From Actinoalloteichus hoggarensis (GTDB lineage: Bacteria > Actinomycetota > Actinomycetes > Mycobacteriales > Pseudonocardiaceae): a DNA stretch of 64,000 nucleotides. The position numbers were made by a program, and so were the translations under genes. Where the stretch lies: assembly GCF_002234535.1 (NCBI RefSeq), contig NZ_CP022521.1, forward strand, positions 1,364,001 through 1,428,000, given 5' to 3'. Below the pieces are notes generated by a model that made no database searches, was not told the DNA's origin, and saw only the letters and a list, made by a program, of their open reading frames with translations. This document shows positions 6,337 through 63,708 of this stretch, piece by piece. The number at the start of each line of letters is the position of its first letter. Positions within the stretch are counted from its first letter, which is position 1.

Positions 6337-7890
6337 TCAGTGGGAGGCGCCGCGCCCGCGCAGCAGACCGCGCGCGTCCAGAGCGCCGAAGGGCCCGTCG
6401 ACCACCCGCAGGCGGGTCGCCGCCGCCTCCGCCTCGGCGCGGTCGCCCGCTTCCACCAGATCGGCCAGCCGATCGAAGGCGGCGGTGTGCTCGGCCGCCC
6501 GCGCCCGCGCGTAGTCGGCCGCCGAATCGCGGGTCACCATGAACGCCCAGTCGCTGGAGCAGGCCAGCAGTGCCTCCTGCCAGAGCTGATCGAGCACCCG
6601 GTCACGGCCCGCGCCGAAGCGGTGGCCGTCGACCACGGCGAGCAGCCGATGCTGGAGCCGATCGTTGTCCGCCACCAGATCCGCCACGGCGGGGCCGTTC
6701 CACACCCGCCAGTCCTTGCCCGAGCCCCACGACGACGCGGGCAGTTCGACCGGGGCGCCGACATGCCCGGCCGCGAGCACCCGCCGCGGCGTGGTCACCG
6801 TGACACCCGCCTCGGGCAGGCCGCGCAGGACGCCCGCCAGCCACGCCGGACCCTCATGCCACCAGTGACCGAACAGCTCGGTGTCGAAGGCCGCCACCAC
6901 CAGCGGCGGCCGTGCGGTGTCGGCGGCGTCGCGATGCTCCCGCAACCGGGTGACGACCGCGTCCACGAAGTCCGCGACGTGCTCCGCCACCGCCGCCGCC
7001 GCGACGTCGGGCAAGTAGGGCTGCTTGTCCTCGGGCGCGACGGTCCGACCGGTGACCCTCGCGGGCTTGAGCCCTGTCGGATGGTCGTAGGTGTGGAAGT
7101 CCCGATAGGCGGGATGCCCCGGATAGCCGACCTTCGGCGACCACACCCGCTCGGCGATCTCGCCGTCCCGGCCGAAGCAGACGACCTCGGAGTCCCACAC
7201 CGGTCGTGCCGCCGAGGTCCGGCCCGCGAGCGCGGGGGAGTCGACGAGGAAGTGCGTCACCCCGGCGTCGGCGTAGCCGAGCTCCATCCCGGGGTCGAAG
7301 CCGCACTCCGGCGCCCAGATCCCCGTGCCGCGGCTTCCCCGCCGCAGCTCCCCGTCCGCCAGCCCGACCCGCAGGGCCTCCGCGCGCAGACGCGGGTGCA
7401 GCAGCGGTTGGAACGGATGCGTCGCCGGGCCGCCCAGCAGCTCGATCACTCCGGAGTCCACCAGCGGCCGCAGCAGCGGTGACGCCCCGTGGCGCCAGCG
7501 GGTCTCGAACAGTCCCAGGGCGTCGACAGCCCGACGATGTTCGGCTGCGGCCAGGGCACGCAGCTCGGGCCTGCCCTGCTGCCAGCGGACGGCGGCGTGG
7601 CGGGTGCGCAGCACTCGATCGCCGAGCCAGTCGTGCAGGCCGCGCAGGCTGTAGGGATCGTCCAGTTGAGCGGCGAGAACCGGGGTGACGCCGAGGGCCA
7701 GCTGATCACGCAGGCCTTCGGCGGCCAGGTGTTCGAGGAGTTCGATCAGCGGCAGGTAGGAGTCGGCCCAGGCCTGGTAGAGCCACTCCTCGCCGACCGG
7801 CCAGCTGCCGTGCCGCGCCAGCCAGGGCAGATGGGTGTGCAGGACGAGACAGAACTCGCCGAGCGGCTCGGCGGATCGGCCGCCGATCAC
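6337..7890 (-). CDS. GH57-family glucan branching enzyme-like protein, Rv3031-like
   Basis: A 517-residue GH57 protein: LVLHTHLPWLARHGSWPVGEEWLYQA at the N-terminus (conserved HxHxP region), GIWAPECGFDPGME containing the catalytic glutamate-type motif, and VVAAFDTELFGHWWHEG with the second acidic residue and downstream histidine. The length and two-part layout (TIM-barrel-like domain, then an all-alpha domain) fit alpha-1,4-glucan branching enzymes of the family. The start is GTG 7890 because its GTGA overlaps the stop of the upstream methyltransferase gene (7887), implying translational coupling; the longer frame upstream is a shadow of that gene. In mycobacteria the equivalent protein works in methylglucose lipopolysaccharide synthesis. 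Confidence 0.9.
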   Translation of the reverse strand: MIGGRSAEPLGEFCLVLHTHLPWLARHGSWPVGEEWLYQAWADSYLPLIELLEHLAAEGLRDQLALGVTPVLAAQLDDPYSLRGLHDWLGDRVLRTRHAAVRWQQGRPELRALAAAEHRRAVDALGLFETRWRHGASPLLRPLVDSGVIELLGGPATHPFQPLLHPRLRAEALRVGLADGELRRGSRGTGIWAPECGFDPGMELGYADAGVTHFLVDSPALAGRTSAARPVWDSEVVCFGRDGEIAERVWSPKVGYPGHPAYRDFHTYDHPTGLKPARVTGRTVAPEDKQPYLPDVAAAAVAEHVADFVDAVVTRLREHRDAADTARPPLVVAAFDTELFGHWWHEGPAWLAGVLRGLPEAGVTVTTPRRVLAAGHVGAPVELPASSWGSGKDWRVWNGPAVADLVADNDRLQHRLLAVVDGHRFGAGRDRVLDQLWQEALLACSSDWAFMVTRDSAADYARARAAEHTAAFDRLADLVEAGDRAEAEAAATRLRVVDGPFGALDARGLLRGRGASH

Positions 7891-53268: not shown

Positions 53269-53309
53269 TTGGTGCGGCATCAGGGACTTGAACCCCGAAC
53301 CCGCTGATT
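53269..53309. repeat. attL of the AICE
   Basis: This 41-base copy of the tRNA-Lys 3' end, including the CCA complement TGG and ending in the anticodon loop, exactly matches 63632-63672. No tRNA 5' half is attached, so it is the duplicated attachment site left by integration. Confidence 0.93.
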
Positions 53310-53861
53310 CATGATCTCTCTTCATCGTCGTTCGGCGTCGGTGCTCGACATGGCCCCTCACCTGCTTGGACGCGGTAGCCGGGTCCACTGTCGAGCATCG
53401 GCGCCCTTCGTCGTTCAGCGTTGTTCTCTGGGGGTATTCCGGGGTCGTGATCTTGAGATGAGCCGGTCATCCGGTGGCAAGGCGGCGAAGCCGTCGCGGC
53501 AGTCGAGCGCCATGACCAGCGTTGCCAGGATGCCCCGCTCGGCGCTCTGTCGGACCGGAGTCGCGGCCTAGCCCTGCTCAGCCTTCTCGCGCGTCGTCTG
53601 CGGTGGCGCATCCCGGAACCCGGCGGCTGGGCGTCGGCCAGGCCGAGGACGCGCGTCAGCGCGCCCGCAGGACTGAGCCGCGCGCCCGGCCTACCCGAGG
53701 TGACCCGGCAGCGCGCCGCCTACGGCGGCGCGCCTTGATCCCCTAGAGCCAGATTCGGCAACGAAAAGTACAGTTAATCAGGAAGAAATTTTCTCGCAGC
53801 GACAGTAGTGGCGTGCCTAATGAAAATCGTGCTAAAGTCGAGTAAAAGAATGGAGAATCGA
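53310..53861. other. left end of the AICE before the cargo
   Basis: No gene is recognised. A perfect hairpin with 10-bp arms (53711-53720 and 53724-53733, loop TAC) followed by CTTGATCCCC could be a terminator that insulates the cargo. From 53755 the composition changes abruptly to AT-rich, and the promoter of the cargo operon must lie at about 53755-53850. Confidence 0.5.
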
Positions 53862-54836
53862 ATGGGTAAAAACAAGTCCCGAAAGAAGACGGTTTCCTTC
53901 TTCGAGGTGCGCGGCAAGGATGGGGAAGCTATCGAGGAGCCGATCGACTGGAAGCACATTCTTAGCCGGTTGGCGAATCGCGGACACATGGAAAGGCTTC
54001 GCGAAATAGGCGGGACCTCCTATTGGTACAATGTGCAGACTCATGATGGCGAAGACGTGTTTGTATTTCTGCGCCACCGCGACGAAGGTGTCTCGTCCTA
54101 CAATCTAATAGCCGACAAGGTTATCGAAAATGATCCAGTCGATGTCGATAGGCCCTACGTGGAGTACTCGGTTGTTAAGTTTATTTCCGGAACCAACAAG
54201 TTTGGCTTCGTCTTGGGTTCCAATGCGTCCGCGCGCACGGCATCTCTTCAGTCTTACTTGAACAAAGCTGATATATTCAGCGAGGAGATAACTATTGGCC
54301 CAGACTGGGGGGCGGACGCTAAGGAAAGAATTCTTGCGGCCGAGGAGGCGGTCTCGTTTGAAGTTGTCCTTGAACCAGATCATTTGTCTGCAATTCAGTC
54401 GTCCTCAGGAGTTTTTGCTACTTCTGATATCATTAAGTCTGCACCGTCTAGCTTGAGCCTGCGTCTCGAATTCAAATCGAAAGGGCGTATAGTTAAGGCC
54501 GACGCGGAAAAACGCAGAGAAATTGCAGAGATAGCGAAGGCTTATGTAAACTTGCCGGCAATGAGGGCTGCCGTGTACTTGCCGAAGCCGCTGAAAAATG
54601 GGAAGTTTGATAGGGAAAAGATTGACTTCTACGAAAATCAGCTTACGACCAAAATATCGGTCGTGTTTCGTGGGGACGATCCCGAATCGAGCAAAATAAG
54701 AATGTACATCGAGGCTATTGACGCTGCTACCGAGCAGCTCCACGATCAGCTATTCCGACCGGACGTTCTGTCGGTAGGTTGGGATAGTATCGTGTCGGAG
54801 GTGGTTGAGGGCCATGGACGGCAGATATGTCGATAA
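53862..54836 (+). CDS. AICE cargo protein 1, unknown, soluble
   Basis: A 324-residue soluble protein, strikingly AT-rich compared with everything around it and using codons rare in this genome (AAA, ATA, AAT), so it came from another source. Begins MGKNKSRKKTVSFFEVRGKDGE and contains alternating strands (YWYNVQTHDGEDVFVFLRH) and charged helices (KRREIAEIAKAYVN). I recognise no catalytic motif or named family. ATG 53862 has GGAG about 8 bases upstream; GTG 53808 is possible but unsupported. It overlaps the membrane protein gene by 23 bases, so the two are coupled. A cytosolic plus membrane pair on a mobile element suggests a defence or exclusion system (inference). Confidence 0.75.
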   Translation: MGKNKSRKKTVSFFEVRGKDGEAIEEPIDWKHILSRLANRGHMERLREIGGTSYWYNVQTHDGEDVFVFLRHRDEGVSSYNLIADKVIENDPVDVDRPYVEYSVVKFISGTNKFGFVLGSNASARTASLQSYLNKADIFSEEITIGPDWGADAKERILAAEEAVSFEVVLEPDHLSAIQSSSGVFATSDIIKSAPSSLSLRLEFKSKGRIVKADAEKRREIAEIAKAYVNLPAMRAAVYLPKPLKNGKFDREKIDFYENQLTTKISVVFRGDDPESSKIRMYIEAIDAATEQLHDQLFRPDVLSVGWDSIVSEVVEGHGRQICR

Positions 54837-55380
54837 AGTGCAAGAAAAAAGTATCCTCAAAAGGAGTGGCTTAAAGATTCGCGAATGGTGGCTTCGGCAT
54901 CCAAATCTCGATCTGGCAATTTCTATTATGTTGGTACTTGCAGCGCATGTGGCTTCGAGTCTGGCGAAAAAGGAGCTTGGATCATGGATGGATAGTGGAC
55001 AAAGAACCGACGCCTACGCGGCGGGGGCGGGGGTGATGTCGCTTCTTGGTGGCTTCGTAAGTGTTAGCGTATCTCAGTATTTGTCCACAGGGGGAGCGAC
55101 TTTCGAAGCTGTGCGCCAGCGGCATGGAAGCGTGCTGAATAAGAATTATATGAGCATAATAAAGTGGCTTTTCGGCGGTGCCCTACTTTGCTTGCTTGCC
55201 ATGCTTTTAGACACCGATAGATTCTACAGTGCATCCTTTTCAATCTTTTTAACAAGCCTGGTGTTGTCTGTCGCAAAATTTACCAGACTCGCGGTGGTTT
55301 TTGCTATTTTTCTAGGTACCATTGTGATTGATGGCAGACCTAAGGCTCTCAGGAAAAGATCTATCGGGGTGAAGATCTGA
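54814..55380 (+). CDS. AICE cargo protein 2, multi-spanning membrane protein
   Basis: A 188-residue membrane protein with four or five predicted helices: about 32-50 (LDLAISIMLVLAAHVASSL), 68-90, 114-132 (SIIKWLFGGALLCLLAMLL), 138-153 and 156-172, and Lys/Arg-rich N- and C-termini. It has two TTA leucine codons (residues 20 and 132), rare in streptomycete-type genomes, so it may depend on the bldA tRNA. It overlaps the upstream gene by 23 bases. TTG 54805 is an alternative start. The unit looks like a two-gene effector/sensor pair. I do not recognise a family. Confidence 0.72.
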   Translation: MDGRYVDKVQEKSILKRSGLKIREWWLRHPNLDLAISIMLVLAAHVASSLAKKELGSWMDSGQRTDAYAAGAGVMSLLGGFVSVSVSQYLSTGGATFEAVRQRHGSVLNKNYMSIIKWLFGGALLCLLAMLLDTDRFYSASFSIFLTSLVLSVAKFTRLAVVFAIFLGTIVIDGRPKALRKRSIGVKI

Positions 55381-55501: not shown

Positions 55502-56062
55502 ATGAGATTGCAGCGGCAGGCTCGCCAGCTCGCGTTTGACCAATTGGCGGTGATAATGCCTCGCCGGTGGCGCCACGTTCAGGGTGTCGCGGATCGCGCA
55601 GCTAAAACTTCTGCACTAGTCGTTGGCAACGGGTCCGAGATAGTTTCCGCAGCGTTTTTGCACGACGTGGGCTATTCTCCTGGACTGGTAGTTACAGGCT
55701 TTCATCCATTGGATGGTGCTCGATGGCTTCGCGGTGCCGGTGTCTCACAGCGAGTAGTGAACCTCGTAGCTCACCACTCTTGTGCGCGGCTGGAGGCTCG
55801 GCTGCGCGGCTTGTCGGCCGAACTCGACGAGTTTCCCGATGAGGGGCCGACTCCAGTGCGGGATGCCTTGTGGTGGGCGGACATGACGACGTCTCCGGAT
55901 GGTGTTCCGGTGACCTTCGATGAGCGCATATCGGAGATTCAGCGCCGGTACGGCCCTGAAGACCTTGTGTCCCGCTTCATCCGAGAGGCTGAGCCTGAGC
56001 TACGGGCCGCTGTTGAGAGAACGGAGAGACGCTTGCTCGCTGCGGGGAATCATGAGAAGTAG
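55502..56062 (+). CDS. HD-domain protein
   Basis: A 186-residue HD-fold protein: HVQGVADRAAK, AAFLHDVGYSPGL (the HD pair) and VVNLVAHHSCARLEAR give the metal-binding His...HD...H arrangement of phosphohydrolases. It lies convergent with the NUDIX gene and overlaps its end by 13 bases. Together with NUDIX and XRE proteins it forms a group seen in actinomycete elements; both HD and NUDIX enzymes act on nucleotides, so they may control a signal nucleotide. The actual substrate is unknown. Confidence 0.8.
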   Translation: MRLQRQARQLAFDQLAVIMPRRWRHVQGVADRAAKTSALVVGNGSEIVSAAFLHDVGYSPGLVVTGFHPLDGARWLRGAGVSQRVVNLVAHHSCARLEARLRGLSAELDEFPDEGPTPVRDALWWADMTTSPDGVPVTFDERISEIQRRYGPEDLVSRFIREAEPELRAAVERTERRLLAAGNHEK

Positions 56063-56520
56063 GGTTCCCCGCTGCGCTCGATGCCGTGTGTGATGCGGAG
56101 TCGGATCGATGGGTGGATGTTGAGGGCGTCGAGGTCATCAGGTTCGACCCATAGCACTTCTTTGCTTTCGTTGCTGGTGCGGAGTTCTCCGCCGGTGGGG
56201 ATGGCTCGAAAGCAGATGGAGAACTCTTGTCGTACTTCTCCGTCGGTGTATGCGATGACGTGTTCGGGATCGGTGTAGATGCCGGTGATTTTCTGGACTT
56301 CGACGTCGATGCCGGTCTCTTCCTTCACTTCGCGTACGACGGTGTGGGAGATGGTCTCGCCGATGTCTTGGGCTCCGCCGGGGATGGCGTAGAGGTCGTT
56401 GTCGGTGCGACGGATCATGAGGAGTCGGCCGGTCTCGTCCTGGATGACGGCGGTCACGGCGACGACGATGCTGTTGGCCTGGGGTGCGGTGGGGTCTTGG
56501 TAGTAGTCGGTGCGTGCCAT
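56050..56520 (-). CDS. NUDIX hydrolase (Pif-like) of the AICE
   Basis: A 156-residue NUDIX protein with box GGAQDIGETISHTVVRE then VKEETGI. Starts MARTDYYQDPTAPQANSIVV. In pSAM2 the Pif protein with a NUDIX motif prevents redundant transfer between element-bearing cells, so this gene likely plays that role. It lies directly downstream of the XRE gene (four bases apart, same strand), hence in one operon. Its paralogue at 52302 lies outside the element. Confidence 0.86.
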   Translation of the reverse strand: MARTDYYQDPTAPQANSIVVAVTAVIQDETGRLLMIRRTDNDLYAIPGGAQDIGETISHTVVREVKEETGIDVEVQKITGIYTDPEHVIAYTDGEVRQEFSICFRAIPTGGELRTSNESKEVLWVEPDDLDALNIHPSIRLRITHGIERSGEPYFS

Positions 56521-56524
56521 GGTG

Positions 56525-57277
56525 TTACTCCTTTGCCCACTTGGGTTCTTTGGCGGACTTCCAGACGGATTCCAGGCTCTCGGAGTAGTTCTCGAAGAGG
56601 TCGCCTGCGGAGAGCCGTCGGAGGTGCAGGGCTGGTGCGTGTGCGGCTTGGAAGCCGTAGAGGTGGGTGTTGACCACCATCTCGTCGTCGAAGCGGTAGA
56701 TGGAGTTGTAAAGCGTTGTGCCGTGGCAGCGGATCTCGATGTTGGGTTCATCGCGGAGCGGGCGGAAGAACGCGAGTGCGTTACGGACCTTGGCGGCGAG
56801 CGTGGTCTTACCGATGCCCTCGTCTTCGCTGCGGCGGGTGACTTCGCGGCTGACGGGGTCGCCGAAGAGCAGTCGGATACGGGTTCCGCCTTGTGCCTTC
56901 TCGCGGAACTGGTGAATGAGCTTCGGATACTCGGTGAGGAACATGCCTGCGTAGACGAGGATCTCGATGTCCTCATGTGCGTTGTCGATCAGCCGCGACC
57001 AGAGCTCGCGCGGGACGGCGTGTCGGTGGGGGTAGACCTTGATGACCTCCGACACCGCGACCTCGGCCTTGCGCTCGGTGGGAAGCGCGTCGGGCCAGAG
57101 GTAGTTCTCTGATTCGCGGACCATGGCGGCGATGGTGTGGCGATGTTTCGGGTACGGGATGCGGTTCTTGGTGATCCACCGCTCCACGGTCTTCGGGTCC
57201 ACTTTGGCCGCACGGGCGACGTGATCGAGGTTCAGGCCTTGGCGGAGCAAGGCGTCACGGAGTCGTTCGTTGGGCAT
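56525..57277 (-). CDS. XRE-type regulator of the AICE (DUF5919-like)
   Basis: A 250-residue protein. N-terminal helix-turn-helix: LRDALLRQGLNLDHVARAAKVDPKTVERWITKNRIP, about residues 5-40. The C-terminal domain is of the DUF5919 type: IEILVYAGMFLTEYPKLIHQFREKAQ, TRIRLLFGDPVS and IRCHGTTLYNSIYRFDDEMVVNTHLYG, similar to phospholipase D-like sensor domains, but no HKD motif is visible. It may repress the divergent Pra operon through the GGGACGT repeats between them. ATG 57277 is chosen from the family N-terminus. Confidence 0.85.
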   Translation of the reverse strand: MPNERLRDALLRQGLNLDHVARAAKVDPKTVERWITKNRIPYPKHRHTIAAMVRESENYLWPDALPTERKAEVAVSEVIKVYPHRHAVPRELWSRLIDNAHEDIEILVYAGMFLTEYPKLIHQFREKAQGGTRIRLLFGDPVSREVTRRSEDEGIGKTTLAAKVRNALAFFRPLRDEPNIEIRCHGTTLYNSIYRFDDEMVVNTHLYGFQAAHAPALHLRRLSAGDLFENYSESLESVWKSAKEPKWAKE

Positions 57278-57290
57278 GACCACCCTCTTG

Positions 57291-57362
57291 GGGACACGTA
57301 GGGACGTCTTCGACGGTAGCAGGGACGTCCCGAGAAGTCCCACGGTGTGGTGTGTACGTCCC
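57291..57362. promoter_or_regulatory. GGGACGT operator cluster between XRE and Pra genes
   Basis: The divergent spacer carries GGGACACGT at 57291, GGGACGT at 57301-57307, the palindrome GGGACGTCCC at 57322-57331 and inverted ACGTCCC at 57356-57362. Repeated sites of one motif in the only divergent promoter of the element are a likely target of the XRE regulator. Confidence 0.65.
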
Positions 57363-57431
57363 GCTGGAACGCCGATGGTGGTGGTCAGAGTCGCCGTACT
57401 AGCTCGGCGACGTGACGCCTGGAGGCTGGTT

Positions 57432-57857
57432 ATGCCTGTGCCCAACGGTTATCGGTTCGCGGTGCCCTTCGACGACGTGTTCCCGGACGGGGCGTTCGTC
57501 TTGGGGGTGGAACAGGGGATGGATTTCGACAACGGCCAGCGGCGTCCGGCCAAGGACAAGGTGACGGGTCGTCTGGTGTGGAATGTGCAGGTCACCGACC
57601 CGGCTGCGAACGGGCGGAACACCGGTGTGGTGGTCAAGATCGCCGCTGACGTGCAGCCGGTTCCGCCGGAGGCATTGCCGGGGACGCCGTTTCGTCCGGT
57701 GTTCTTCGAGGGGCTGACGGCGACGGCGTATGAGCAGAACGGGCGGGTCGCGTTCAGCCTGCGGGCGGCGTCGATGCGCGCTCCCGGCGCTGGTACCGGC
57801 GTGGGTAGGGCCTCGTCGGGGAAGTCGTCCGCGTCGTCGACGCAGGAAGCGGCGTGA
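57432..57857 (+). CDS. Pra-like activator of replication, integration and excision
   Basis: A 141-residue protein matching, from memory, the family named after the pSAM2 activator Pra: FPDGAFVLGVEQGMDFDNGQ, KDKVTGRLVWNVQVTDP, VVVKIAADVQPVPPEALPGTPFRPVFFEGLT and AFSLRAASMRAP. In pSAM2 Pra switches on the rep-xis-int operon. The ATG at 57432 is preceded by GGAGG at 57421-57425. It is divergent from XRE and starts a run of plus-strand genes toward Rep and Int, so the XRE-Pra spacer is the likely switch of the element. Confidence 0.8.
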   Translation: MPVPNGYRFAVPFDDVFPDGAFVLGVEQGMDFDNGQRRPAKDKVTGRLVWNVQVTDPAANGRNTGVVVKIAADVQPVPPEALPGTPFRPVFFEGLTATAYEQNGRVAFSLRAASMRAPGAGTGVGRASSGKSSASSTQEAA

Positions 57858-58822: not shown

Positions 58823-59011
58823 ATGAGCTTAGAGCAACCACAGAACGTGTCAAGTCCTCACGGACAGTCAGTTCCGCGCAGGTGTCCTGCCTGCCACAAG
58901 TTCGGCAAGTTCGCCCCCGGCCACGCGCGCTGTCTGCGGTGTCTTGGGTGGCTGCCGTTGGACTTCGGCCCGGCCGTGAACACCCTGGGGCGGGGTGGTC
59001 GGGATGCCTGA
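58823..59011 (+). CDS. 62-residue zinc-finger-like protein
   Basis: CPACHKFGKFAPGHARCLRCLGW gives a C-x2-C...C-x2-C zinc site in a 62-residue protein. CCGGAGTG precedes ATG 58823. Its end overlaps the start of the FtsK-like gene at 59004, so the two are coupled. Function unknown. Confidence 0.65.
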   Translation: MSLEQPQNVSSPHGQSVPRRCPACHKFGKFAPGHARCLRCLGWLPLDFGPAVNTLGRGGRDA

Positions 59012-60536
59012 GCGCTCCAGGTGGATCGATCCCGCCCCGTTGGAGGTCTCCCGGCCTCGGTTGCCGTGGTGGACCCATTCGCCCCGGTGGGCGCTGGTCC
59101 TGGCGGTGCCGTTCCTCGCTGTCGGCCTGGTGGTGTGGTTATCGGTGGTGGTGCTGCGCAAGGCCTCCCGGTATCCGGTCGTCGCGTTCGTGGTCCTGGT
59201 GCTCGTCGTGATCGGCCCGCTCTGGGGTTGGACCGTCGCCCTGATCCTTGGTGCGGTCTTGGCTCTGGTGCTGGTCGGCTGGTGGTGGCGGTTTCGGCCG
59301 TCGTTCCTGCGCCTGGTGCTCGGCGAGGTGCGGTCGGAGTGGCGGCGGCTCGTGGTCTACGCGCCGGTGTGGCATCGGACGATGCTGTTCTGCCATCTCG
59401 ACCGGAAGGTTGACCGCAAGACCCACGTTCCGGTGTTCGTGCGGGTCCGTGCCGACGGGTGGCGAGACCGGGTCACGGTCGCGTTGTTGCATGGTCAAGC
59501 ACCCGGTGAGTTCGAGGCACGAGCTGAGGCGTTGGCGCACTCCTTCGGCGCTCGGTCCTGCCGAGTCCGGGTACTCAGTCCTCGGCGGATCGTCCTGGAT
59601 CTGCTGCACGGTGACCCGCTGACACGGCCGGTGCTGCCTCCTCCGCTGCCCGACACTGCCGACGACGTCACCGGCTTCACTGCGAAAGACCTGGAGCGGG
59701 TCCCGGTCGGGGTGACGGAGGCGGGTCGGCCGTGGCTGCTTCGACTCCTCGGCTCCCACATCCTCGCCGTCGGAGCGACCGGCGCTGGCAAGGCCTCGGT
59801 GGTCTGGTCGCTGCTCTGGTCCCTCGCCCCGCTCCTGCGCTCGGGGCTGGTCCGGGTCTACGGGATCGACCCCAAAGGTGGAATGGAACTCGGCAAGGCA
59901 CCCGGCCTGTTCCACCGGCTGGTGTTCGACAACGGACTTGAGGCTGTCGAGCTGTTGGAAGAGGTTGCGGCCGAGGTGAAGCAGCGGGCCGCAGCGTTCC
60001 GGGGGCAGCGGCGAGGGTGGTCGGTCGACTGCGGTCAACCGTTCCTCCTGCTCATCGTGGACGAGTTGGCCGATGTCGTGGCCTACCCGACCGACCGCAA
60101 GCTCAAGGAACGCGCGAACTCGGCCTTACAGACCATCACCAGCCAAGGGCGCGCACCCGGCGTCTGCGTCATCGGCGAACTCCAAGACCCCCGCAAGGAA
60201 GTCCTGTCCTTCCGGCACCTATTCCCGACCCGCGTAGCGCTGCGGGTGGATGAACCGGGCCAGGTGGACATGGTCCTGGGCGACGGCGTCCGGGAACGCG
60301 GTGCGGCGGCACACGAGATTTCAGAGACGACTCCGGGCGTGGCGTGGGTGAAGTACACCGACCGACGCGAACCCCTCCGAGTCCGAGCGTTCCACGTCAC
60401 CGATACCGACCTAGACCGACTCGTCGACTACGTCACCGAACCCGCCTCGGCCGAACAGTCGGCGATCGTGCACGCCTTCCCGACCCTGCCGGAGATTCCG
60501 GGTCCGGACTCGGCCGTGCGGGGTGAGGCCGCGTGA
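59004..60536 (+). CDS. FtsK/SpoIIIE-type DNA translocase for conjugal transfer (TraSA-like)
   Basis: A 510-residue DNA pump. Two N-terminal membrane helices (about 30-50 and 58-95), then the ATPase domain with Walker A GATGAGKAS (about residue 255; family usually GKGS), VYGIDPKGGMEL, Walker B LLLIVDELADV, and a QGRAPGVCVIGELQDPRKEV C-terminal segment. AICEs move double-stranded DNA between mycelia with a single protein of this class. ATG 59004 is chosen; GTG 58995 is possible. It overlaps Rep by four bases (GTGA). Confidence 0.9.
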   Translation: MPERSRWIDPAPLEVSRPRLPWWTHSPRWALVLAVPFLAVGLVVWLSVVVLRKASRYPVVAFVVLVLVVIGPLWGWTVALILGAVLALVLVGWWWRFRPSFLRLVLGEVRSEWRRLVVYAPVWHRTMLFCHLDRKVDRKTHVPVFVRVRADGWRDRVTVALLHGQAPGEFEARAEALAHSFGARSCRVRVLSPRRIVLDLLHGDPLTRPVLPPPLPDTADDVTGFTAKDLERVPVGVTEAGRPWLLRLLGSHILAVGATGAGKASVVWSLLWSLAPLLRSGLVRVYGIDPKGGMELGKAPGLFHRLVFDNGLEAVELLEEVAAEVKQRAAAFRGQRRGWSVDCGQPFLLLIVDELADVVAYPTDRKLKERANSALQTITSQGRAPGVCVIGELQDPRKEVLSFRHLFPTRVALRVDEPGQVDMVLGDGVRERGAAAHEISETTPGVAWVKYTDRREPLRVRAFHVTDTDLDRLVDYVTEPASAEQSAIVHAFPTLPEIPGPDSAVRGEAA

Positions 60537-62182
60537 GTGCCGATCTGACGACCGTTCCCGGTGACGTGCAGGGCTTCACCCGTGCCGAGCGGATGCGCCA
60601 ACCCCTGGCGGGGAAGGTCTTGGAGGCGACTGCGGATCACCACGGGGTGTGTATCCGGCCGTTCATGATGGAGACCGTCGACTACGACACCGGGGAGATG
60701 CGCTACGTCGGCGTCCCCTGCGGCTCCACCGTGGAAACCCAGTGCGGGCCGTGCGCTCGGAAGGCACGTGCCCTGCGGCAGACCCAGTGCCGCGAAGGAT
60801 GGCACCTCGACGACGAACCCGACTTCACCCCCGAACCCCCCACCGACCAACAGAAACTCCTCGTCGCCTACCGCGCGGACCTGGTCGCCGAATACCGAAA
60901 GGCCCTCGCCGAGGGTGCCGAGACCGACGCCGAAGAACTCCGCGAAGCCATCCACACCGCCGACGCCGACCTCCGCAACCTCGGCGTGCGGGGGAAGCTG
61001 CCCAACCCGGACGCCCCGGCCACTGCGGTGCGTAAGCGGTCCACTCGGCGGCGGCAGGACGCGCCGAACCTCCCTCGACGGCGAGTGGAGAAACGCACCC
61101 TCGGCCGCGAGTACGCCGGAAAGTTCCGGCCCTCGATGTTCCTCACGTTGACCCTGGACACCTACGGGCGGGTCCGACGCGATGGAACACCCGTCGACTT
61201 CGCCACCTACGACTACCGACGCGCCGCACGCGACGTCGTCCACTTCGCCGCACTGGTCGACCGCTGGTGGCAGAACCTCCGCCGCTGCGTCGGCTGGGAC
61301 GTCCAATACTTCGCGACGGTAGAACCGCAGAAACGCGGTGCTCCGCATCTGCACGCCGCACTCCGGGGCTCTATCCCCCACTCGGTGATCAAAGACGTGA
61401 CGGCGGCGACGTATCACCAGGTGTGGTGGCCGAACCATGATCGGCTGCTCTACGAGACAGATCGGCTGCCGGTCTGGGATCACGAACGACGCAGCTTCGT
61501 CGACCCTGGCACCCGACAGGCCCTACCGACCTGGGACGAGGCTGTCGCCAACCTGGATGCACCCGCGCATGTCTCGACGTTCGGCGAGCAGGTCCACTCC
61601 AAGGGCATCCTCGGCGGCACCCCCGAAGCCGGACGCCACATCGGCTACCTCACCAAATACCTCACCAAATCCGTCTCCGAGGTCGTCGAACAAGACACCA
61701 CCCGGCAACGGGAACACGCCGACCGACTCCACACCGAGCTGGCCGTCACCCCCTGCTCACCCCGGTGCCCGATCTGGCTGCGCTATGGCGTTCAGCCTCT
61801 CGGGGCTCGGTCTCAGACGGCCTCGGCGCACTGCAAGGGCAAAGCACACCGACGCACCACCCTCGGCCTCCCCGGCCGCCGAGTGCTCGTGTCACGGAAG
61901 TGGTCGGGCAAGTCGCTGGCCGACCACCGGGCCGACCGCAAGCGCTTCGTCGCCGAAACCCTCGCAGCCGCCGGAATCGAGAAACCACCACAGAACACCT
62001 CCCGACTCGGCTGGCAGAAAGTCCGACCCGGCGACCCCGGCGTACCACCACGCGCACACGTCCTGCTGCACGCCATCTCCGAACGCCTCACCTGGAAAGC
62101 CGAATACGACCGGGCCTTACTCGCCGCACAACCACCACCAGGCGGCGACACAGAACTTTCGGCAACTCCGCTCGCAGCCTGA
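60533..62182 (+). CDS. replication initiator, RepSA-like
   Basis: A 549-residue rolling-circle-type initiator. Cysteine-rich N-terminal segment (CGPCARKARALRQTQC), then FLTLTL (motif 1), GAPHLHAALRG with the metal-binding HLH (motif 2) and HIGYLTKYLTKS, where the tyrosine lies (motif 3). Further cysteines in CSPRCPIW follow. Such proteins nick the origin so the excised element can replicate. GTG 60533 overlaps the transfer gene. It is co-transcribed with xis and int. Confidence 0.88.
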   Translation: MSADLTTVPGDVQGFTRAERMRQPLAGKVLEATADHHGVCIRPFMMETVDYDTGEMRYVGVPCGSTVETQCGPCARKARALRQTQCREGWHLDDEPDFTPEPPTDQQKLLVAYRADLVAEYRKALAEGAETDAEELREAIHTADADLRNLGVRGKLPNPDAPATAVRKRSTRRRQDAPNLPRRRVEKRTLGREYAGKFRPSMFLTLTLDTYGRVRRDGTPVDFATYDYRRAARDVVHFAALVDRWWQNLRRCVGWDVQYFATVEPQKRGAPHLHAALRGSIPHSVIKDVTAATYHQVWWPNHDRLLYETDRLPVWDHERRSFVDPGTRQALPTWDEAVANLDAPAHVSTFGEQVHSKGILGGTPEAGRHIGYLTKYLTKSVSEVVEQDTTRQREHADRLHTELAVTPCSPRCPIWLRYGVQPLGARSQTASAHCKGKAHRRTTLGLPGRRVLVSRKWSGKSLADHRADRKRFVAETLAAAGIEKPPQNTSRLGWQKVRPGDPGVPPRAHVLLHAISERLTWKAEYDRALLAAQPPPGGDTELSATPLAA

Positions 62183-62202
62183 TGACCTGGGGGAACAACG
62201 AC

Positions 62203-62397
62203 ATGACCGCGACCCGACTCGAACCACTTTGGACCGTCGACGACGTCTCCACCTACCTCGGCATCCCGGTGCACACGCTCTACGGCTGGCGAGCCAAGAA
62301 CTACGGCCCACCCGCCCGCCGCATCGGCAAGTACCTCCGATACCGACCCGACGACGTCCGCCAGTGGGTGGATGCCCTCGACACCGAGGCGGCCTGA
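62203..62397 (+). CDS. excisionase (MerR/HTH-17-type Xis)
   Basis: A 64-residue DNA-binding protein: WTVDDVSTYLGIPVHTLYGWRAKNYGPPARRIGKYLRYRPDDVRQWVD is the helix-turn-helix 17/Xis pattern. ATG 62203 has GGGGGA upstream and is preferred over ATG 62182. It overlaps the integrase start (TGATG). It steers the integrase toward excision. Confidence 0.9.
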   Translation: MTATRLEPLWTVDDVSTYLGIPVHTLYGWRAKNYGPPARRIGKYLRYRPDDVRQWVDALDTEAA

Positions 62398-63581
62398 TGC
62401 CGCGACCACCGCTCCCGCTGGGCACCCACGGCAAGATCAAGACTTATCACGTCGGCCCGAAGAGATACCGGGCTCGCTGCCGCTACCGCGACGTCAACGG
62501 ACGAACCTACGAAGTCGAACGGTACGACTCGACACGAGCAAAGGCCGAGACACGACTCAAAGAGGCCGTCCGCGACTGGGTCCCGCCGCTGGCTTCCGCC
62601 GAGATCACCGGAAATACTCGGCTTGCGGTGGTCGGCGCGGCCTGGCTGGCCGAGCTGGAAGCGGACGCCGAACGTGGGCATCTGTCCTGGGGAACGGTGG
62701 ACACCTATCGAAGTCGGCTCAATGGAACGGTCGTTCCTGCACTGGGCGAACTGCGGATGCGGGAGTCCTCGCCCCAGGTGCTGGACGCTCTGTGCCGTCG
62801 TATCCGTGATCAGTCCAGCGCCAGTTCGGCCAGAACCGTGCGGGCCGTGCTCGCTGGCATCTGCGCCTACGCCGTACGTGTAGGCGCGTTGGAGACCAAC
62901 CCCGTGCGTGACATCGGCAAACTGGAGTCACGGAAAGCCCGGCACAAGCCCTCGGTCTCTCGTGCCCTGACCGCTGAGCAGGTGGTCGATCTCCTCGGCA
63001 AGCTGGACGCGGACTCGGCGGCGGTGGATGCGGATCTTCCCGACCTCATCCGCTTCTTCCTCGCGACCGGGGAGCGCACCGGGGAGGCCCTGGGGGCGTA
63101 CTGGTCCGACTTCGACGAGAAAGCAAAGCTGATCACCATGACCGGCAACGTCATCCGGGCCACGGGACGGGGCAAGATCCGCAACGACGGCAAGACCGAG
63201 AACTCCGGCCGTCCGATCCCATTACCCGACTGGTGCGTGCGGATGCTCGTCGAGCGGCGGGCCACTGCTCGCACGCTGGAAGGGCCGATCTTCCCGAGCA
63301 CGACCGGCACCGTTCGCGAGGCATCCAACGTCCGAAATCGGGCGTGGAAGCCGTTCACCGTGCGATCCGGCTACGACTGGGTCACCTTCCGCACCTTCCG
63401 TAAGACCGTGGCGACCCTGCTCGACGACGCAGGCTTGACCGCTCGACAGATCGCGGACATCCTCGGGCACGCACGCCCCTCGATGACCCAGGACGTCTAC
63501 ATGGGCCGCCGGTCGGTGTCCCGCCTCGGGGCCGATGCCCTCGGCGGGCTCGACGGGACAGCCCGCGAAAAGGCGGGGTAA
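62397..63581 (+). CDS. tyrosine site-specific integrase of the AICE
   Basis: A 394-residue phage-type integrase. N-terminal arm-binding and core-binding domains, then the catalytic domain with the first arginine in FLATGERTGEALG, the second box RTFRKTVATLLDDAGL, ADILGHARPSMT and the tyrosine in QDVYMGR. In the H-x-x-R box the first residue is Arg rather than His; Arg/Lys/Tyr substitutions are tolerated in some family members. It lies immediately next to attR and the tRNA, the normal place. It should recombine the 41-bp att repeats with Xis for excision. Confidence 0.93.
   Translation: MPRPPLPLGTHGKIKTYHVGPKRYRARCRYRDVNGRTYEVERYDSTRAKAETRLKEAVRDWVPPLASAEITGNTRLAVVGAAWLAELEADAERGHLSWGTVDTYRSRLNGTVVPALGELRMRESSPQVLDALCRRIRDQSSASSARTVRAVLAGICAYAVRVGALETNPVRDIGKLESRKARHKPSVSRALTAEQVVDLLGKLDADSAAVDADLPDLIRFFLATGERTGEALGAYWSDFDEKAKLITMTGNVIRATGRGKIRNDGKTENSGRPIPLPDWCVRMLVERRATARTLEGPIFPSTTGTVREASNVRNRAWKPFTVRSGYDWVTFRTFRKTVATLLDDAGLTARQIADILGHARPSMTQDVYMGRRSVSRLGADALGGLDGTAREKAG

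Positions 63582-63631: not shown

Positions 63632-63633
<2 letters not shown>
63607..63633 (-). terminator. terminator downstream of tRNA-Lys, supplied by the element
   Basis: AAACCCCAGG (63607-63616) pairs with CCTGGGGTTT (63624-63633) around a 7-base loop; on the minus strand a run of five T follows (63605-63609). It can end tRNA transcription and, from the plus side, that of int. It lies inside the element boundary, so the element replaced whatever followed the tRNA before integration. Confidence 0.85.

Positions 63634-63708
<75 letters not shown>

Follow-up and report, generated by a model that had tools for sequence, protein, structure and literature searches.

What kind of system is encoded by the two overlapping, AT-rich genes that lie at one end of a mobile element in Actinoalloteichus hoggarensis? 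The pair is part of a stretch of 64,000 nucleotides (contig NZ_CP022521.1, positions 1,364,001 to 1,428,000), which has been analysed as a whole and is referred to here as the window. The comparisons described below make it likely that the pair, which an AICE carries as cargo, is an abortive-infection (exclusion) system of the RexAB type.

The initial annotation had described an overlapping, AT-rich pair at the end of an AICE, and this description holds. The two ORFs share 23 bp (54814-54836), and the 1.5 kb that they occupy has the lowest GC content of any 1.5-kb segment in the window (0.487 vs a mean of 0.702, sd 0.044). The pair begins 552 bp inside attL, at the end of the element distal to the integrase. 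The GC3 values of the first and second genes are 0.57 and 0.49, against 0.79–0.83 for the FtsK, RepSA and Int genes of the element, and the neighbouring HD gene is likewise low (0.61). TTA codons had been claimed for both genes; three are found in the second and none in the first. A GGAG motif is present at 53852-53855, upstream of the first gene, and no consensus promoter or terminator beyond chance has been found between 53300 and 55600. The ~450 bp between the att copy and the pair (53310-53760) are GC-rich (0.70) and contain no clear gene, and the break in composition, at about 53760, is abrupt.

The carrier is an AICE of 10.4 kb inserted in a tRNA-Lys gene, since the att repeat at the tRNA, a tyrosine integrase, RepSA and an FtsK-type transfer protein are all present (Table 1). 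Its HD, NUDIX and DUF5919 genes resemble the mdp-nud-xre cluster that has been described for AICEs (PMC3218068). The host genome has one copy of the pair, which was not found in two congeners that were searched. The search for RNA families found none besides the tRNA.

Table 1. Coordinates of the gene pair and of its carrier element within the window.
Feature	Position	Strand	Description and evidence
att copy, 41 bp, AICE end distal to integrase	53269-53309	.	Exact repeat of 63632-63672
Gene of RexA-like soluble protein (putative sensor/activator)	53862-54836	+	ATG start, 324 aa; profile of 21 relatives matches lambda RexA 8TWQ
Gene of RexB-like four-helix membrane protein (putative effector)	54814-55380	+	ATG start, 188 aa; four hydrophobic segments; co-occurs and co-varies with RexA-like gene
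HD-domain protein of AICE	55502-56062	+	Pfam HD E 5e-4, slightly under curated cut-off
Frame with NUDIX hydrolase of AICE, candidate Pif-like exclusion factor	56050-56976	-	PF00293 E 1e-17
Frame with regulator carrying DUF5919	56525-57445	-	PF19319 E 1.4e-10
FtsK/TraB-type transfer protein	58995-60536	+	tblastn E 2e-8 to L041 ORF with PF01580 (kinship via that ORF)
RepSA replication initiator	60533-62182	+	PF20199 E 5.8e-100
Tyrosine integrase, start approximate	62391-63581	+	PF00589 E 3.9e-12 in open frame 61437-63581
att copy, 41 bp, inside tRNA-Lys gene	63632-63672	.	Exact repeat of 53269-53309
tRNA-Lys(CTT), integration site	63633-63708	-	

Neither window protein has a match better than E 0.05 in Pfam, PADLOC, PHROGs or NCBIfam (the best is a PHROG at 0.058); the initial annotation had seen no recognisable motifs in the 324-aa protein. 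It had suggested running PADLOC on the element, and PADLOC names neither protein of the pair at E ≤ 1. As a control, ten proteins were compared with PADLOC, which holds models of RexA and RexB. These models match the two lambda proteins (9e-110 and 8.6e-61), and no match was obtained for the remaining eight: the CarolAnn pair, the RexA-like proteins of RavenCo17, G112, G604 and G317, and the RexB-like proteins of G604 and G317. These models (PDLC02339 and PDLC02340 of PADLOC-DB 2.0.0) recognise lambda and miss the experimentally proven CarolAnn pair, and as a result the actinobacterial Rex counts obtained from them are likely too low.

Searches with single sequences were similarly unproductive. 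With phmmer, either window protein gave chance-level matches only in the PDB. With tblastn, the soluble protein found a single match in phages (RavenCo17, E 6e-3) and none in plasmids, while the membrane protein found none in phages at E ≤ 1, the RavenCo17 ORF included, for which the low-complexity filter may be the cause. Phage searches with RavenCo17 gp42 and with the G317 and G268 proteins detected no other phage. Four scans of viral contigs were empty, as was the scan of genome contigs with the window soluble protein; the family protein A7 found one locus there, in Micromonospora humi.

A resemblance to Kiwa (KwaA/KwaB) had also been suggested. Kiwa consists of a four-helix membrane protein and a partner of about 315 aa, and the PADLOC library presumably holds Kwa models. 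However, its gene order is the reverse of that of the pair, the kinship of the window protein is to RexA, and the PDB profile search gave no credible match but RexA. With no PADLOC family at E ≤ 1, the resemblance to Kiwa is not supported.

The kinship of the soluble protein becomes visible when profiles of its relatives are used. Against 177,635 distinct PDB sequences, a nine-row profile has lambda RexA (8TWQ) as its only match up to E 10, at E 0.0016. With 13 rows, RexA is found at 8.8e-5 and the next match at 0.19. With 21 rows (the 24 pairs described below minus three near-identical plasmid copies), the values are 2e-6 for 8TWQ and 0.12 for the next match, the runners-up being designed proteins. 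Profile-profile comparison with lambda RexA alone gives P 0.0022 (13%) for five rows, 1.8e-4 (49%) for nine and 1.2e-5 (81%) for 24. Against four lambda-type RexA sequences, the values are 1.4e-6 (90.4%) for 13 rows, 1.9e-7 (93.7%) for 19 and 6e-7 (92.2%) for 24. Reversed RexA, used as a control, gives 0.1–0.2%. The best of 200 column shuffles reaches P 0.094 with 13 rows and 0.027 with 24, and 103 real neighbour proteins, compared one sequence at a time, reach 0.078 at best. When each of the 13 rows is left out in turn, P stays at 1.3e-5 or better. The matched span of RexA varies with the comparison, from residues 27-189 to 52-209. The split globular domain of RexA is reported to comprise residues 1-139 and 248-279, and its dimerisation domain residues 143-234 (PMC11077077); by these limits, the match reaches both domains. 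Taken together, these comparisons indicate that the soluble component is related to lambda RexA, from which an RdgC-type fold and a dimer may be predicted for it.

The membrane protein had been described as having four or five helices and basic ends. The hydropathy rule gives four (32-50, 69-87, 114-132 and 149-167) rather than five, and both the N-end and the C-end are basic, as is the TM2-TM3 loop. Four hydrophobic segments are present in all 18 membrane proteins measured (13/13 and 5/5, with six later-found ones outside this count) at a mean hydropathy cut-off of 1.2; the stricter cut-off of 1.5, which was used first, gives two to four. Among 55 neighbour genes of 140-230 aa, the same cut-off gives three to five segments in 4. 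The TM2-TM3 loop is net basic in 13/13 family proteins and in each of the three lambda-type RexB; by the same count, that of Sbash gp31 is not. Profile-profile comparison of the family membrane protein with RexB gives P 0.005-0.037, the best of 100 shuffles being 0.072, and a PDB search with the membrane protein A10 returned nothing credible. These values do not establish kinship by sequence, and it is for its topology and position that protein 2 is called RexB-like. That sequence kinship to RexB is not established would fit a two-gene toxin unit, or an unrelated membrane system that merely resembles RexAB. Such a system is quite improbable given the profile kinship of protein 1 to RexA, from which the decoys are far off.

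A further check proposed in the initial annotation, whether the pair is conserved among homologues, bears out the pairing. Twenty-four intact pairs have been collected, from the window, one Gordonia phage, 17 further genomes and five Streptomyces linear plasmids, and in all of them the membrane gene is directly downstream of the soluble gene. The genomes come from three samples, which may overlap and whose counts include the window's own genome. In the order sample, the window soluble protein alone finds 5 of 397 genomes and the five-row profile 10 of 397, one of which (G347) is false. The nine-row profile finds 8 of 394 genomes in the class sample, with G593 and G770 doubtful, and the 13-row profile finds 1 of 296 in the phylum sample, the window's own. 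The family spans six family-level groups of one class (f1, f8, f15, f16, f33 and f41).

At intact rexA-like loci, the next gene encodes the membrane protein. The pairing is also recovered from the other side. The 13-row membrane-protein profile alone matches 19 of the 397 genomes of the order, 15 of them with the pair. These are the window's own genome, seven already-known intact ones, six newly found (G302, G375, G231, G301, G309 and G397) and G248, whose first gene is broken. In all six new genomes, the upstream gene matches the RexA-like profile (E 1e-23 to 1e-78; 286 ORFs searched). The remaining four (G213, G251, G247 and G126) have weak rexB-like matches and no rexA-like neighbour in the stretch examined, which in G213 is at a contig end. 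The identity matrices of the two proteins co-vary with r 0.95 over the 24 pairs and 0.92 over 21 pairs after three near-copies are dropped, and 0 of 2000 permutations reach either value.

Some matches have been left out of the pair count. In G347, the match is 56 aa inside a secreted-looking protein, and the matches in G593 and G770 are about 50 aa long. In G248, an in-frame stop interrupts the rexA-like gene and the membrane gene is divided between two frames. Its close relative in G229 has no such defects, and the G248 copy looks like a case of recent decay. On the five linear plasmids, one of them recorded as [Kitasatospora] papulosa, the pairs are annotated as hypothetical proteins, their genes are 19-24 bp apart, and they lie 3 to 31 kb from the plasmid end. 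Close to each of these plasmid pairs (L073-L077) is a gene that the records call 'helicase associated domain protein'.

The phage member of the family is found in Gordonia phage RavenCo17. Its gp42 aligns with the window soluble protein at E 1e-9 and 22% identity (BLASTP of the two sequences alone); among the PHROGs it matches phrog_10865 (1.8e-5), whose function is unknown. The immunity repressor gp43 is immediately upstream of gp42, and the ORF behind gp42 is 35% identical to the window membrane protein (BLASTP E 6e-13). This RexB-like partner is an unannotated ORF at 7001-7600 (+) of OP434446.1, where the record shows no gene; its open frame, which is antisense to the integrase gene, extends as far as 7999. 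The resulting order of repressor, RexA-like and RexB-like genes is that of lambda cI-rexA-rexB and also that of CarolAnn.

The position next to a repressor raises the possibility that the pair regulates the integrated/excised switch of its own element, with any exclusion being a by-product. Lambda RexA has been reported to influence the CI/Cro switch (PMC11077077), and the pair in G661 is beside an ORF that is HTH-like by eye, without a Pfam match. However, other copies are located beside defence genes with no immunity region among the genes scanned, and the AICE has a regulator gene of its own, which makes this role highly unlikely.

The genomic settings of the relatives have been assessed from selected neighbours (30 proteins in Pfam and eight in PADLOC) at 11 of the 12 long-flank genomic loci, and with a tblastn panel at all 12. 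Mobile or defence genes, i.e., integrases, AICE genes and defence genes, are nearby in 8 of 11 loci, a raw count over selected neighbours without a background rate. The pair in G658 is 126 bp from HmaC of an HmaABC set. In G314, a type ISP restriction enzyme and a ResIII helicase flank it, and GmrSD lies farther out. In G423, MmeI, a DEAD helicase and a T5orf172 protein are close by, and a TrwC relaxase is present on the opposite side. The surroundings of the G423 pair (L029, 1710-7593, 10245-15737 and 15842-19000), which also include a NACHT-type NTPase, look like a mobile defence island. The pair adjoins a tyrosine integrase in G317. In G260 there are a C5 methylase and, 0.3 kb from the pair, a piece of an integrase, and in G661 a serine recombinase follows 0.8 kb downstream. 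For G112, G229 and G268, no mobile or defence genes were found among the one or two Pfam-scanned neighbours of each.

Both G742 and G604 have the pair on an AICE-like element, at the far end from the integrase. The G742 element has a 56-bp att repeat at tRNA-Pro. The G604 element has HD, NUDIX and DUF5919 genes in common with the window AICE, at 46-59% identity, and an 18-bp repeat as its only candidate att. In G742 (L041/L050/L051), there are three tRNA-Pro att copies (4811801, 4822026 and 4836649), as if two elements were in tandem; the one adjoining the tRNA carries the pair.

Together with the window, these two genomes place the pair on three AICE-like elements, each time distal to the integrase. 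This would suit entry exclusion or incompatibility, with the pair acting against a further AICE or plasmid and not against phages. Entry exclusion had been offered in the initial annotation and is very improbable, because relatives also occur within the immunity region of a phage, in restriction islands and on linear plasmids, and because AICE exclusion has been ascribed to Nudix proteins such as Pif (PMC3218068). The window element has its own, separate NUDIX gene, of a kind linked to conjugal immunity. The more general proposal that a cytosolic and membrane pair serves defence finds good support in the conserved pairing, the mobile and defence contexts and the RexA kinship of protein 1.

The pair can be compared with several characterized systems. 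As in lambda, the order is a soluble protein followed by a four-helix membrane protein. Protein 1 is related to RexA by profile, the TM2-TM3 loop of protein 2 is net basic like that of lambda RexB, and the RavenCo17 member follows a repressor as lambda rexA follows cI. The pair differs from lambda in that protein 1 is longer (324 vs 279 aa), its kinship to RexA is below single-sequence detection, and protein 2 has no established sequence link to RexB. In the window, moreover, the two genes overlap and are carried by an AICE, with no repressor in front of them. RexAB of P. putida (PP_5643/PP_5644), likened here by description, also combines a cytosolic RexA-like protein with a four-helix membrane effector and is prophage-borne, downstream of a CI-like repressor (PMC12894663).

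Closer in host range are gp44/gp43 of the Gordonia phage CarolAnn and gp30/gp31 of the Mycobacterium phage Sbash, which have the two-gene order, four helices, actinobacterial hosts and overlapping genes (26 bp and 41 bp). Profile comparison with the family gives P 0.30-0.66 for the soluble and 0.012-0.057 for the membrane proteins, with power limited by three sequences on their side. The CarolAnn/Sbash/Sejanus group (three sequences) has no match to lambda-type RexA (P 0.32). The gp30/gp31 pair of the Mycobacterium phage Butters is likewise a soluble protein with a four-helix partner and has reported actinobacterial orthologues (PMC7542560). With a single sequence on the Butters side, it has no convincing match to the family (P 0.054 and 0.072), and gp30 matches lambda-type RexA weakly (P 0.01 over 27 columns). 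Toast gp42, another published RexA homologue, lies outside the set compared here. Membership of the family in the CarolAnn/Sbash or the Butters group has been rejected on these profile comparisons, with few sequences on the side of those groups. The link of the family to lambda RexA is clearer than that of the other actinobacterial systems compared, which are represented by fewer sequences.

The Butters system suggests a different division of labour, in which inhibition of the phage is the work of the RexA-like protein itself, and the role of the membrane protein is only to anchor or restrain that protein. Butters gp30 alone has been reported to inhibit phage, with gp31 attenuating gp30 (PMC7542560), and gene order and topology are the same as in the window. 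This arrangement is unlikely for the present family, which lacks a profile match to gp30/gp31 and links to lambda RexA instead.

The functional details of RexAB-type systems come from several reports. In CarolAnn, gp43 and gp44 are both required for defence, and Sbash gp30 and gp31 are together necessary and sufficient; the model proposed for both is a depolarisation set off by the phage, and Sbash defence is lost with two substitutions in the middle, cytoplasmic region of gp31 (PMC6426606, PMC6426596). In P. putida, overproduced RexA leads to RexB-dependent growth arrest and membrane damage, no depolarisation was observed, and the two-hybrid assay of RexA-RexB binding was negative (PMC12894663). 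Lambda RexA is described as binding DNA non-specifically, and DNA binding as not correlated with exclusion (PMC11077077).

By analogy with the lambda, CarolAnn, Sbash and P. putida systems, we infer DNA binding, activation by phage, membrane damage and defence for the RexAB-type pair of the window. The RexA-like protein would be idle in the cytosol, probably on DNA, until an infection, when a phage protein or phage replication complex would activate it. The activated protein would then act on the four-helix RexB-like protein, probably via the basic TM2-TM3 loop, and the RexB-like protein would either leak ions or break membrane integrity. Growth would stop ahead of phage progeny, so that the host population and the element survive. 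The element thus probably protects its host from viruses.

The initial annotation had called the system undescribed. The RexAB kind is long known, which removes this claim for the type as such, and it stands for the actinobacterial branch in that none of the four libraries used here has a label for it. A literature search of titles and the beginnings of abstracts, with most subscription papers and all preprints outside its scope, did not find RexAB on AICEs or linear plasmids. The Butters orthologues reported in actinobacteria (PMC7542560) belong to a group that has no profile match to the present family, and RexA homologues in actinophages, along with orphan ones outside prophages, have been mentioned (PMC11077077). 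The term 'Rex' gave no match in the main text of a survey from 2023 on the antiviral systems of actinobacteria (PMC10482375). A 2022 survey reports RexAB only in Proteobacteria and concedes that its models may be limited in reach (PMC9090908).

A broader and rather doubtful reading is that a RexAB branch has moved out of the prophage to become a general alarm for DNA invasion on conjugative elements, linear plasmids and restriction islands. It is similarly speculative that the RexA-like sensor would react to foreign replication or recombination complexes of phages, competing AICEs and plasmids alike. If this were true, the pair would serve both antiviral defence and competition between elements. 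The family profile makes such actinobacterial systems findable. Since the pair described here stands apart from any lambda-type switch, the old question of whether Rex exclusion truly serves defence or only follows from the lambda switch is now directly testable.
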